From positions 3,678,001-3,742,000 of the forward strand of contig NZ_CP054424.1 of assembly GCF_013334205.1 (NCBI RefSeq): a DNA stretch of 64,000 nucleotides. Reading direction: 5' to 3'. A model generated the notes under the pieces. The model ran no database searches and was not told the origin of the DNA. It was given only the letters and a program-made list of their open reading frames with translations. The stretch is from Rhodoferax sp. BAB1. Lineage in GTDB: Bacteria; Pseudomonadota; Gammaproteobacteria; Burkholderiales; Burkholderiaceae_C. Shown piece after piece: positions 30,101-37,926 of this stretch (the first letter of the stretch is position 1; the number at the start of each line of letters is the position of its first letter). The position numbers and the translations under genes are program-made.

Positions 30101-30416
30101 CGATTTCGGTACCGGTTATTCCTCGCTCTCCTGTCTGCACGAGCTGCCGGTCAACCAGGTCAAGATCGACCGTTCCTTCGTGAGCCAGGCGCTCACCAGC
30201 AATTACCACCGCGTGATGATCGATGCCACCATCAGCATGGCGCGCACGCTGGGCCTGCAGACCGTGGCCGAAGGCATCGAGACGGCCGAGCAGGCCGCGC
30301 TCATGGCCGAGCTCGGTTGCGGCAAGGGCCAAGGGTATCTGTACAGCCGGCCGCTGAGCGCCCGGGACCTCGAGTCATGGGCCCTGGCCATGCCGGCGGC
30401 TGCGCTCAGGACTTGA
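27177..30416 (+). CDS. Membrane-bound PAS-GGDEF-EAL cyclic-di-GMP protein
   Basis: 1079 residues. Membrane helices are at about 45-62 and 225-246, bracketing a periplasmic helical sensor, followed by about three PAS/PAC units (about 260-640). The GGDEF domain has GGDEF at 725-729, and the EAL domain has EAL at 853-855 and DDFGTGYSS near 975. Both catalytic signatures are intact, so it could make or degrade c-di-GMP. The inhibitory RxxD site before GGDEF is absent and a short insertion precedes it. It sits between rpe and the trp operon, with no receptor gene adjacent. Confidence 0.93.
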   Translation: MKSSETTSIVSDPQEKRGSAWRRVLDWLPRRSRPEGGIQVYRWVRLALYTVLVVVGALTYWQMRQQQQAEEIRQADAEIIRVAAAQSTLIQRMSMLLTRLQHDEGSEEEHVNALTETLNQTQTQATLLDELLARQGVWQLDDRPQLRGAIFEWQDRREKVWYRTQSLLWLIDQDNPARRLVAAQFLQTELESFWLTTQSLVDELQLAAQRRSGASMERIEFSGNFMLGVLLLLILAVAEPLVLFVRRQSEDLQQQSMELQRLALVAQRTSNWVAVVDRERRVLWCNEAFLRGKGSTLDEVLGQHAALLASNDYNDAEEMTRLLAELDMGLAARVDVMHRGRQGEEVWLDVDYQPIHDAQGLHTGFTLVARDITDTVNERVRMQTLLDTLPAGVVLQSAQGVVIECNRQAQEMLALPQQKLLGRDRLAEDNMVVRSDLTPYAMADRPSVRTLSSGRGLRGELVGHMRTAGELRWHMVNTEPMHDAAGHLTGVISCLVDVTQQREQQQLLTLAIESASLGVWQWDIPSGRMDVNDRLLSLFGYQPGQMDLTSDGFLQLIHPDDREGWGWAIRTNLRDSHQPLHWEVRMHHGSGRWMWTLFSGTVVARDGSGRALRMAGICYDINAQKELEEQLRQSARTDSLTRLPNRVELLGRIEASIQRTRQQPGYCFAVLFMDFDRFKQVNDTLGHSVGDELLRQIAKRLEDSLRPGDAFVQTSDFSQMAARIGGDEFVVLLDNIRGDLDAQVVAARLLEVLAEPYQIGPHRVSSTASIGIVTTAHMAEDPDSVLRDADIAMYEAKRQGRGRYEMFEPSMRKRVHDDVELENDLRQAIDKGEIHVVYQPMMDLGSGRLVGMEALARWSHPLRGPVSPLTFIPVAEATGVIGRLGEFVLKTACHELVRLRGLLGARAPETVSVNLSRAQLRQAGFTAKLSELLYSAGLAPGSLMLEVTESLAAQDEGMQAILREIRALGVSLSLDDFGTGYSSLSCLHELPVNQVKIDRSFVSQALTSNYHRVMIDATISMARTLGLQTVAEGIETAEQAALMAELGCGKGQGYLYSRPLSARDLESWALAMPAAALRT

Positions 30417-30987
30417 TGTCCAGCAGGGCGTTCTTGAGCTGCCAGTCCGCCGGGGCCTTGCCCAGCCAGATGCCCATCAGGGCGGCGAAGAACTCGGGCT
30501 CCTTGAAGGGGGCGCCCTGGACCTTGCCCTTGACCGCGATGGACAAGCCCTGACCGGGTACCCAGTCCAGGGTGAAGCTGTCGCCGGCCATGAGCTTCTT
30601 GTGATCGGAAAAGATCTGGCTCATGCGCATGATGCCGGGGATCAGCTGGACGAAGGCCGCGCGGTCCATGTTGTCCTCCATGCCGCGGGAGAACAGCTTG
30701 CCCAGTTCGGCGGCATCGATCTCGCGCAGCATGGTGATGCTCATGCGCTTGGGCCCGGGCGTCTTGAGGATTTCTTCCAGCGAGCCGGCCTTGCGGCTGG
30801 TGTAGAGGCCGGCGGCATAGACCTTGAAGACGGCCTTGTAGCGCACGCCGGCCCCGTTGAGATCCAGCTTGCTGCCGTTGACTTCGACTTGCGGCGCGAA
30901 ATTGACGCCGCCCACTTCCAGCGCGGATGCCACTTGGCCCAGACCCAGCAGCAGGCCGAACACGGCGGGACGTAAAGGAAACCACAT
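30406..30987 (-). CDS. Periplasmic chalcone isomerase-like protein
   Basis: 193 residues: a signal peptide (about 1-22), then the chalcone-isomerase-like domain (LEVGGVNFAPQVEVNG, GAGVRYKAVFKVYAAGLYTSRK, RMSITMLREIDAAELG). Bacterial members are periplasmic proteins of unknown function that keep the fold but usually not the flavonoid isomerase active site. It converges on the GGDEF-EAL gene with an 11-bp overlap. Confidence 0.85.
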   Translation of the reverse strand: MWFPLRPAVFGLLLGLGQVASALEVGGVNFAPQVEVNGSKLDLNGAGVRYKAVFKVYAAGLYTSRKAGSLEEILKTPGPKRMSITMLREIDAAELGKLFSRGMEDNMDRAAFVQLIPGIMRMSQIFSDHKKLMAGDSFTLDWVPGQGLSIAVKGKVQGAPFKEPEFFAALMGIWLGKAPADWQLKNALLDIKS

Positions 30988-31085
30988 GATCGGAAACCTC
31001 CGGAATAGTACGATCGTTCGTTCTAATTATCCCAGACCCCGGCGCCGGCCCGATTCAGGGTTTTTCTGGGGGTGGGCGCCTTTGC

Positions 31086-31091
31086 TAAACT
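31086..31091 (+). promoter_or_regulatory. Candidate -10 box of the trp operon
   Basis: TAAACT lies 6 bp before the ATG of the leader peptide (31098). A start site at the usual distance would coincide with that ATG, giving a leaderless leader-peptide mRNA as is known for trpL of Sinorhizobium meliloti. The -35 region (T-rich, about 31061-31066) is weak. Confidence 0.45.
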
Positions 31092-31097
31092 GGGCCC

Positions 31098-31163
31098 ATG
31101 TTCATTCACCGCCTCATCAGCACAGGTTGCAGCGACCGGGGAGCCTGGCCCTGGCGTACCTGA
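31098..31163 (+). CDS. trpL: Probable trp operon leader peptide
   Basis: 21 codons and a TGA: Met-Phe-Ile-His-Arg-Leu-Ile-Ser-Thr-Gly-Cys-Ser-Asp-Arg-Gly-Ala-Trp-Pro-Trp-Arg-Thr. Two Trp codons (31146-31148 and 31152-31154), separated by one Pro, lie just before the stop, the hallmark of a trp attenuator. It precedes trpE by 162 bp and is flanked by complementary segments. No Shine-Dalgarno is visible, consistent with a leaderless start. I found it by reading the region; it is not supported by homology. Confidence 0.75.
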   Translation: MFIHRLISTGCSDRGAWPWRT

Positions 31164-31224
31164 CATGACGTGCGCGCCCGGTCGCGCGACTGAGGCCGGC
31201 TGACGACCCGCCCGGTCATGCACC
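31132..31224 (+). promoter_or_regulatory. trp attenuator, competing complementary segments
   Basis: GCGACCGGG (31132-31140, just before the Trp codons) is perfectly complementary to CCCGGTCGC (31177-31185). Copies of CCCGGTC recur at 31211-31217 and 31227-31233, so the first segment can pair with any of three partners, the last being part of the terminator-like hairpin. A small GC hairpin (31172-31187) can also form. A ribosome stalled on the Trp codons would cover the first segment and change which pairs form. The exact fold was not computed. Confidence 0.55.
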
Positions 31225-31243
31225 ACCCCGGTCCACGGGGTTT
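31225..31243 (+). terminator. Terminator-like hairpin of the trp attenuator
   Basis: ACCCCG (31225-31230), loop GTCCA, CGGGGT (31236-31241), running into TTT. A short stem and a short T run make it a weak intrinsic terminator, as expected for a conditional one. It lies between the leader peptide and trpE. Confidence 0.5.
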
Positions 31244-31325
31244 CCAGAACTGAATGAATGAACAGGGCACACAGTGCCTGGCGCCAGGGCCAACCGTCCT
31301 GGCGTCGAACCGGAGTTTTCCCGTG

Positions 31326-32822
31326 ATGACCGAATCCGAATTCAAGGAACTGGCCCGCCAGGGCTACAACCGCATCCCCCTGCTGGCCCAGGCCTTTGCC
31401 GACCTGGAAACGCCGCTCTCGCTCTACCTCAAGCTGGCGCATGCGCAAAACGGCGGCAAGAACACCTTTCTGCTGGAGTCCGTGGTGGGTGGCGAGCGCT
31501 TCGGCCGCTACAGCTTCATCGGCCTGCCGGCGCGCACCTTGGTGCGCTCGCGCGGTTTTGGCGAATCGGCAGTGACCGAAGTCGTGACCGACGACGTGGT
31601 GGTGGAGACCTCGCGCCTGAACCCGCTGGACTTCGTGGCCCAGTACCACCAGCGCTTCAAGGTGGCGCTGCAGCCCGGCCTGCCGCGTTTCTGCGGCGGC
31701 CTGGCCGGCTACTTCGGCTACGACACGGTACGCCACATCGAAAAAAAGCTGGTGCACAGCTGCCCGCCCGACACCCTGGGCTGCCCCGACATCCTGCTGC
31801 TGCAGTGCGAGGAACTGGCCGTCATCGACAACCTCTCGGGCAAGCTCTACCTCATCGTCTACGCCGACCCCGGGCAGCCGCAGGCCTATGACCAGGCGCA
31901 GGCCCGGCTGGCCGAACTGCGCGAGCGTCTGAACACCTCGGTGCAGGCGCCGCCCATCAAGCCCAGCCCCTCGCATGAGATCGGCCGCGAGTTCGCCAAG
32001 GACGACTACATCGCCGCCGTGGAGCGCGCCAAGGAGTTGATCGCCGCCGGCGACTTCATGCAGGTCCAGGTGGGCCAGCGCCTGCACAAGCGTTACACCG
32101 AGTCGCCGCTGTCGCTCTACCGCGCGCTGCGCTCGCTCAACCCCTCCCCTTACATGTACTACTACCACTTCGGGGATTTCCACGTGGTGGGCGCCTCGCC
32201 GGAGATCCTGGTGCGGCAGGAGCAGACCCCCGAGGGGCAGAAGGTCACCATCCGTCCGCTGGCGGGCACCCGCCCACGCGGCGCCACGCCGGAGCTGGAC
32301 AAGGCGGCCGAGGTGGAGCTGGTGGGTGACCCCAAGGAGCGTGCCGAGCACGTGATGCTGATCGACCTGGCGCGCAACGACATCGGCCGCATCGCGAAGA
32401 CCGGCAGCGTCAAGGTGACCGAGGCCTTTGTGGTCGAGCGCTACAGCCACGTGATGCACATCGTCAGCAACGTCGAGGGCCTGCTGAAGGACGGCATGAG
32501 CTCCATGGACGTGCTCAAGGCCACCTTCCCGGCGGGCACGCTGACCGGCGCGCCCAAGGTGCACGCGATGGAACTGATCGACCAGTTGGAGCCCAGCAAA
32601 CGCGGCCTGTACGGCGGTGCCTGCGGTTACCTGAGTTATGCCGGCGACATGGATGTGGCCATCGCCATCCGCACCGGCATCATCAAGAACGACACGCTCT
32701 ATGTGCAGGCCGCGGCCGGTGTGGTGGCCGACTCGATCCCCGAGATGGAGTGGCGCGAGACCGAGCACAAGGCGCGCGCCCTGGTGCGCGCTTCGGAACT
32801 GGTCGAGCAGGGTCTGGAGTGA
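31326..32822 (+). CDS. trpE: Anthranilate synthase component I
   Basis: 498 residues. The feedback site LLES lies at about 49-52, where tryptophan binds. Chorismate-binding motifs include [32 protein letters not shown] and a C-terminal IAIRTGI. With TrpG it converts chorismate and glutamine to anthranilate. Start at the ATG 31326, which follows a CGGAG Shine-Dalgarno; an in-frame ATG at 31254 would add 24 unconserved residues. First structural gene of trpEG-D-C and probably attenuated by the leader upstream. Confidence 0.97.
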
Positions 32823-36226: not shown

Positions 36227-36312
36227 GGAGAGGTGGCCGAGTGGTTAATGGCAGCAGACTGTAAATCTGCCCTCTTACGAGTACGCTGGTTCGAATCCAG
36301 CCCTCTCCACCA
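36227..36312 (+). tRNA. tRNA-Tyr(GTA)
   Basis: 86 bases including encoded CCA. The acceptor stem pairs GGAGAGG with CCTCTCC, the anticodon is GTA, the long variable arm is typical of class II tRNA-Tyr, and the T loop is GTTCGAATC. First of the Tyr-Gly-Thr cluster before tuf. A short CGCCCC-GTT-GGGGCG hairpin (36336-36350) lies between it and tRNA-Gly and may be a processing signal. Confidence 0.97.
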
Positions 36313-36390
36313 GTGATGAGTTGATTGTCAGGGCGCGCCCCGTTGGGGCGGGTGAACTGTCTGCTGTGAACGCTTGCAAGGCAGGTTTGC

Positions 36391-36464
36391 GCGGGGTTCG
36401 TATAGTGGTAATACCTTAGCCTTCCAAGCTAAAGCGAGGAGTTCGATTCTCCTACCCCGCTCCA
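36391..36464 (+). tRNA. tRNA-Gly(TCC)
   Basis: 74 bases with encoded CCA. The acceptor stem is GCGGGGT/ACCCCGC, the anticodon TCC, and the T loop GTTCGATTC. Second member of the tRNA cluster. Confidence 0.97.
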
Positions 36465-36495
36465 CAATTGACTTGTTGTGATGGTGAAAGAATTT

Positions 36496-36570
<75 letters not shown>

Positions 36571-36651
36571 GTTTCAGGTGCGCGGCTTGTGCCGACGTGT
36601 CTTGGTGTTTGATTCGTATTGCTTTTCGCATCCTTTCTGGAGATTTGAAAA

Positions 36652-37842
<1,191 letters not shown>

Positions 37843-37850
37843 TTGTTCGT

Positions 37851-37926
37851 AGGGGTATAGCTCAATTGGCAGAGCGTCGGTCTCCAAAACCGAAGGTTGT
37901 AGGTTCGATTCCTACTGCCCCTGCCA
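37851..37926 (+). tRNA. tRNA-Trp(CCA)
   Basis: 76 bases with encoded CCA. The acceptor stem is AGGGGTA/TGCCCCT, the anticodon loop CTCCAAA gives CCA, and the T loop GTTCGATTC. It sits 8 bp after tuf, as in E. coli, and is read from the tuf transcript. Confidence 0.97.

Follow-up and report, generated by a model that had tools for sequence, protein, structure and literature searches.

The region upstream of trpE in the window (the whole 64,000-nt stretch of Rhodoferax sp. BAB1 DNA that was analysed) is on balance best read as a tryptophan-sensing, ribosome-mediated attenuator of trpEGDC, probably translational in mode and headed by a leaderless leader peptide. Comparison with relatives bears out the leader ORF, the spacing of its promoter, a long-range helix at the leader start codon (P0) and the absence of a U-tract, while we infer that the start is leaderless, that control is translational and which way each regulatory step runs. 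In the proposed mechanism, transcription would start at the trpL AUG or only a few bases away from it, and ribosomes would load directly on the exposed 5′ end. When tryptophan is present, they would pass the Trp-Pro-Trp codons and leave, upon which a block before the Trp codons would pair with the trpE ribosome-binding region, reducing translation of trpE; with tryptophan short, a ribosome stalled on the Trp codons would cover this block and the trpE start would be free. As soon as the RNA of 31255-31264 has been made, the start codon and the rest of the leader 5′ end would fold onto it, limiting fresh loading of the leader.

The source genome is a single contig of 3.82 Mb, and the window holds trpE, trpG, trpD and trpC consecutively, with the families confirmed by Pfam; the TrpE protein shares 98% identity with Curvibacter and Hylemonella records. 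No match to Trp_repressor was found in the genome. Rfam yielded no cis-element in the window at gathering thresholds, five tRNAs elsewhere in the window being the sole matches, and at E up to 5 gave a single SAM-Chlorobi match that was below its cut-off and unrelated; the Trp_leader covariance model had no match at either setting. The features of the region are as follows.

31081-31091, + strand: extended -10 promoter element TTTGCTAAACT; in 89 of 93 distinct relatives a leader ATG stands 6-10 nt past TGNTA[CAT]A[CG]T
31098-31163, + strand: leader peptide ORF trpL, MFIHRLISTGCSDRGAWPWRT, probably leaderless; an ATG ORF with GAW.W in 91 of 93 distinct relatives
31099-31108, + strand: 5′ strand of helix P0, UGUUCAUUCA, overlapping the start codon; 10-bp perfect partner at 31255-31264
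31125-31137, + strand: mini-hairpin P1, GGUUG CAG CGACC, immediately ahead of the Trp block; across 34 rows, 95.9% of cells are paired
31138-31148, + strand: block GGGGAGCCUGG, conserved at the nucleotide level and with the first Trp codon as its end; a candidate anti-RBS strand that scores slightly better with its own trpE RBS than with a swapped one
31146-31154, + strand: Trp-Pro-Trp codons UGG CCC UGG, read from the sequence; both UGG codons were a selection criterion, met by 91 of 93
31226-31240, + strand: short GC hairpin without a U-tract, followed only by TTTCC
31255-31264, + strand: 3′ strand of helix P0, UGAAUGAACA; 83.3% of cells paired in 34 chosen relatives from the same family, versus 23.5-38.5% when slid by 1-3 columns
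31310-31325, + strand: trpE ribosome-binding region CCGGAGUUUUCCC and GUG start (AUG next, at 31326), from the sequence and the block:RBS test
31323-32822, + strand: trpE, first gene of trpE-trpG-trpD-trpC; Pfam Anth_synt_I_N and Chorismate_bind

From the window's own family (f1), 110 trpE loci were fetched, comprising 30 of the matches in 391 family genomes and the best 80 of 548 relatives, a choice that biases the sample to close kin; dropping 17 loci with the same upstream sequence or too short a one left 93 distinct upstream regions. The first-pass annotation had proposed a Trp-codon leader peptide before trpE, with TAAACT 6 nt before its ATG and translation perhaps beginning at the RNA 5′ end, and this part held up. 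The ORF has 21 codons and ends in Trp-Pro-Trp-Arg-Thr-stop, TAAACT occupies 31086-31091 within TTTGCTAAACT, and 89 of the 93 regions carry an ATG ORF with GAW(P/L)WR placed 6-10 nt behind an extended -10 (a gap of 6 nt in 36, 7 in 18, 8 in 12, 9 in 20 and 10 in 3). Among the remaining four, L003 and L005 have a -10 slightly deviant from the pattern, and L007 and L045 lack an ATG ORF of this kind, L007 having a GAWPWR frame with a non-ATG start. The pattern TTTGCTAMACT-N4-10-ATG matched once in the source genome and not at all in the reversed control. Transcription starts about 7 nt past a -10 element, so that gaps of 6-10 nt would place the RNA 5′ end at the AUG or at most about 3 nt earlier, and no Shine-Dalgarno sequence was seen by eye in the gaps listed for f1 leaders. 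A leaderless or near-leaderless trpL start, conserved across the sampled family, is therefore likely. Codons around the UGG pair are near-fixed despite existing synonyms (CGG 86/89, GGA 86/89, GCC 79/89, CCC 78/89), which points to a constraint on the RNA rather than on the peptide.

Leaders of this kind appear to reach well beyond the family. A promoter-plus-leader sequence model matched in 16 of 300 genomes of the order, nine of them in the window's own family, three in f32 and three in f3 before trpE, and one in f39 not at trpE. One weak match, L126, was dropped since no trpE was recognised among its frames. Reading of 87 loci, taken from 293 order genomes with trpE, found small ORFs with paired Trp codons upstream of trpE in many, not all, families of the order. 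An AW.W leader was missing from 15 of 129 loci of f8 and f32, presumably Oxalobacteraceae and Burkholderiaceae; in f26 (presumably Methylophilaceae), f44 and f5, a leader was found in 69 of 90 loci, and 15 of the 21 without one by the search pattern belonged to f44. A short ORF with regulatory codons directly before a biosynthetic gene is the general mark of ribosome-mediated amino-acid attenuators, and, judged by this comparison, trpL is a genuine Trp leader, one of a wide set in its order.

Conservation of the Trp codons and of a specific pairing had been named at the outset as a check, and of the two only the codons (part of the selection, as given above) recur. As claimed, GCGACCGGG at 31132-31140 is perfectly complementary to CCCGGTCGC at 31177-31185, and further CCGGTC copies are present, one within the short hairpin at 31226-31240. 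As a conserved helix, GCGACCGGG/CCCGGTCGC was rejected, being at chance level across 89 f1 sequences: when the block that precedes and spans the Trp codons was paired with sequence further downstream, the score averaged 20.47 versus 20.30 in mononucleotide shuffles, 38 of 89 sequences lay above their own shuffle mean, and the exact 9-bp pairing was among the three best helices per sequence in L001, L031, L032, L034 and L035 only. Separately, the Trp codon stretch UGGCCCUGGCG (31146-31156) has an 11-nt perfect complement at 31282-31292, upstream of the trpE RBS, with shorter versions listed for L031, L032, L033 and L035; by eye, CCUGGCG at 31298-31304 offers a local partner for 31282-31288 as well.

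Conserved in place of that pairing, by comparative analysis, are the mini-hairpin P1 and the pairing of the first bases of the leader (31099-31108) with 31255-31264, the latter being new here. P1 has two pairs changed on both sides (13/500 shuffles) and a score reached in 9/500 shuffles; sliding it by -3 left 69.4% of cells paired and changed the score little (0.194 vs 0.185). For P0, RNAalifold run on clades suggested pairing of the leader 5′ end with UGAAUGAAC before trpE. Whole-region RNAduplex energies lay beyond all 1000 permutations in f8 and f32 and not in f1, and few sequences beat all 30 of their own shuffles (f8 9/60, f32 5/54, f1 3/89); contiguous helices were used instead as the test of P0. 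Contiguous helices scored higher with a leader's own downstream sequence than with swapped ones in f1 (6.99 vs 6.41, n=89, highest of 2000 permutations 6.71), f8 (8.15 vs 6.91, n=60, highest 7.40) and f32 (9.47 vs 7.65, n=54, highest 8.34), and a control leader segment stayed at shuffle level in f8 and f32 and was raised in f1 (6.06 vs 5.20 shuffled). This and the other own-versus-swapped permutation tests (leader:downstream, leader:RBS and block:RBS) involved no row selection favouring structure and leave relatedness in place.

In f8 and f32 the corresponding P0 helix covaries according to the alignments, and its partner is mostly the U-tract behind the leader; compensated changes include CAAGAAACGG/CCGTTTCTTG, ACAACAAACG/CGTTTGTTGT and CAATAAA/TTTATTG. 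Pair counts come from alignments that are selections leaning towards structure. The f32 alignment holds 27 of 41 rows, most of the others being partner-less at the U-tract or having the partner elsewhere (such as L304 and L313-L316), with L303, L305 and L328 also left out; 86.3% of cells are paired versus 44.8-61.0% slid, and 17 cells are changed on both sides versus 7.2 in shuffles (0/500), the both-side-changed pairs and the pair types being reached in 37/500 and 98/500 shuffles. In f8 (38 rows, 37 of 54 non-redundant f8 rows plus L239) the values are 80.8% versus 42.9-56.4% slid, 28 cells versus 13.2 (0/500), and 7/500 and 57/500. The f1 alignment holds 34 of 77 rows, Hydrogenophaga-type and other sequences being left out; P0 is nearly invariant there, with a covariation score reached in 7/500 shuffles and only one cell changed on both sides (106/500 shuffles), GUUUAUUC/GAAUAAAC in L071, one slid version having two. 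In 15 of the 17 Hydrogenophaga-type f1 sequences, the leader start AUGUUC instead forms 6-7 bp with GAACAU at the start of trpE, and AUGUUGA/UCAACAU in L056 is a compensated change of this pairing. In the f32 loci L304 and L313-L315, among the matches listed, the partner can sit directly behind the leader stop without a U-tract.

Folding models of the 62 of 72 f1 sequences with the helix gave the leader strand a mean unpaired probability of 0.75 before the partner is made and 0.13 after (0.35 in a longer RNA), the drop exceeding 0.2 in 44 of 62 and the window going from 0.36 to 0.06; some fall is expected because the partner was chosen as the best helix. The AUG inside GAAUGAAC was considered as an upstream trpE start and rejected: GAATGAAC occurs in 26 of 89 sequences, sharing the trpE frame in 10 (one of them interrupted by a stop) and not sharing it in 16, hence not as a start.

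Pairing between the leader and the trpE RBS was compared in the same own-versus-swapped manner. For 42 leaders of other families, with start codons hand-picked among the in-frame starts, the part before the first Trp codon scored 7.51 with its own downstream region versus 5.78 swapped (highest permutation 6.60), the mean falling to about 7.03 without L172. The leader-like ORF of L172, MNHRDTEAQ..., and the trpE RBS region together make up a perfect inverted repeat of 27 bp, which may be a dispersed repeat recruited upstream of trpE; L171 has a similar ORF. By family, the scores were 8.00 versus 5.80 in f26 (highest permutation 6.81), 7.70 versus 6.10 in f44 (7.30) and 6.55 versus 6.03 in f5 (6.50). 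Confined to the RBS (-24 to +3), they were 7.54 versus 5.32 in f26 (highest of 5000 permutations 6.33; helix score of at least 7 in 15/26 vs 11% swapped), 7.50 versus 5.58 in f44 (highest 7.13; 9/15 vs 20%), 6.09 versus 5.56 in f5 (highest 6.00; 7/28 vs 16%) and 5.49 versus 4.71 in 34 others, a group that leaves out f15 and f29 (highest 5.44; 5/34 vs 4%). Helices such as TTCCTTAAAAAG/CTTTTTAAGGAA, CCGAATCCTGA/TCAGGATTCGG and CCGTGAAAAA/TTTTTCACGG differ widely in their strands and the pairing stays. In f26 and f44, and weakly in f5, codons ahead of the Trp codons are matched to the trpE RBS, with changes compensated.

In the window's own family, the Trp-proximal block perhaps pairs with the trpE ribosome-binding site in the same way. 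Block CCGGGGAGCCTGG, which runs up to and across the first Trp codon, gave -13.22 with its own RBS, slightly yet consistently better than -12.71 with swapped ones (0/5000 permutations, n=72), and a longer block 4/5000, or 8/5000 on 59 distinct rows. Twelve variant blocks were compared with the consensus; seven fit their own RBS better than it would, most clearly those of L071 (-17.6 vs -13.6) and L065 (-12.2 vs -9.1), two equally and three worse. The RBS outscored 95% of its own shuffles in only 6 of the 72 sequences, an average of 41% of intergenic windows matched the block equally well, and in the 17 Hydrogenophaga-type sequences no block:RBS pairing stood above shuffles. P0 and the block:RBS pairing cross, implying a pseudoknot or mutual exclusion. 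When the leader 5′ end was masked in an opening-cost model, the cost at the trpE start fell from 5.71 to 3.84 kcal/mol in the Hydrogenophaga-type sequences (by more than 0.5 in 13 of 17) while in the other 72 it rose from 7.76 to 8.60 and in the window from 3.9 to 8.5. Placing a ribosome on the Trp codons gave these 72 a cost of 7.39, versus 8.13 with one at the stop codon (sd 2.1-2.7); the window gave 3.90 versus 3.94, no difference, and a queue was worse there (8.55). Since the block:RBS pairing is weak per sequence and the opening-energy signs are opposite in the two f1 groups, the translational mode in the window is graded no higher than likely.

Trp attenuation is a textbook ribosome-read RNA switch known mainly from transcription terminators, and classic transcription attenuation, in which stalling of the ribosome lets an antiterminator form and 31226-31240 acts as the terminator hairpin, is the main rival, though an unlikely one here. 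The first-pass annotation had called this hairpin terminator-like, a description that found no support: it has no U-tract, a pattern scan recognised no + strand terminator in the window region, and a T-run of at least 5 occurs behind the leader in only 3 of 89 f1 sequences, searched up to 15 nt before trpE. A U-tract terminator in the window is thus unlikely as far as the sequence goes, and in the family the leader is retained while the U-tract is nearly absent. Within 110 nt, such T-runs are found in 46 of 60 f8 and 39 of 54 f32 sequences, as classic attenuation would have it, and some f1 members, such as L073 and L075, retain GCCCCGG..TCGGGGC-GTTTTGA. A crude hairpin-plus-T scan, which misses hairpins with a spacer (T-runs were counted in addition for this reason), also leans that way in f1, with 20 of 89 versus 9.8 expected from shuffles, and gave 3 of 8 versus 1.4 in f4, but the pattern discriminates poorly, doing no better in f32 (25/54 vs 22.2) and giving 18/60 versus 8.4 in f8.

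Termination could instead depend on Rho, with translation of the leader deciding Rho loading in the untranslated stretch 31164-31310, which is long and without a U-tract; a comparison of Actinobacteria from 2005 raises the same idea, in its part on mycobacterial cys leaders without terminators (PMC1262725). This would leave the leader:RBS pairing in other families unexplained, and we consider it somewhat less probable still than a classic terminator. Very unlikely, in our view, is a leader that serves mainly as the source of a small RNA or functional peptide, like rnTrpL/peTrpL of S. meliloti, with P0 protecting the RNA ends. S. meliloti provides the precedent, its leaderless trpL having trans-acting products according to passages in PMC7298713 and PMC10117765, and P0 joins the leader to the U-tract in f8 and f32; f1, however, hardly has a U-tract to end a short RNA, and the nearly fixed synonymous sites of the block point to RNA over peptide.

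Among known systems, the E. coli trp attenuator, which we take to be Rfam RF00513, likewise has a Trp-codon leader peptide before trpE; unlike it, the leader in the window has no Rfam match, U-tract terminator or leader Shine-Dalgarno sequence. In ermC and other macrolide-inducible translational attenuators, the next RBS is freed by a ribosome that stalls on the leader peptide. On the translational reading favoured here a stalled leader ribosome would do the same for the next gene, the differences being starved Trp codons and one long-range helix in place of a drug stall and a chain of hairpins. The leaderless trpL of S. meliloti had been named at the outset, rightly so: passages of PMC7298713 and PMC10117765 state that rnTrpL has the trpL AUG as its first bases and becomes an sRNA through termination. 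The window shares a trpE leader peptide with Trp codons and, by sequence, a -10 near enough for the RNA to start at the AUG, with no Shine-Dalgarno sequence; it differs in having hardly any U-tract where S. meliloti has the sRNA-forming terminator, another peptide, a Pro between the two Trp codons, and a P0 helix that overlaps the start codon. Leader codons that pair with the Shine-Dalgarno box, together with a pseudoknot, are proposed for the actinobacterial leuA LEU element in the relevant part of PMC1262725, but there the leucine codons themselves pair, whereas in the window the strand lies mostly before the Trp codons, and gene, phylum and peptide differ. The portions consulted of a premature-terminator survey (PMC2965389) and a structured-RNA survey (PMC8632094) contain nothing on betaproteobacterial trpE. 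A literature search, its scope leaving out most subscription papers, turned up no apparent description of such helices or of a leaderless trp leader in these bacteria; the leader peptides themselves may already be in print.

A wider reading, which we put forward tentatively and with slightly less confidence than that for the window, is that across the order the early codons of trpE leader ORFs serve as an antisense strand to the decisive downstream site. In several families this site would be the trpE RBS and in two the terminator U-tract; Comamonadaceae leaders, which would be leaderless and have their own start codon in the helix, would target the trpE start codon or a position about 40-85 nt before it. 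One covarying, ribosome-opened helix would tie together two starts, or a start and a terminator. A lineage that has nearly lost the U-tract and combines a leaderless leader with a long-range helix to RBS or U-tract would show interconversion of transcriptional and translational attenuation, with helices specific down to single compensated pairs.

In the surroundings of the locus, a chalcone-isomerase-like gene (30406-30987, by Pfam) lies divergently upstream of trpE; in the f32 loci L120-L122 other frames, presumably rpe- and gph-like, take its place. At 36227-37926, about 3.4-5 kb past the trpE end, tRNA-Tyr, tRNA-Gly, tRNA-Thr, a presumably tuf-like gene, and tRNA-Trp follow one another.
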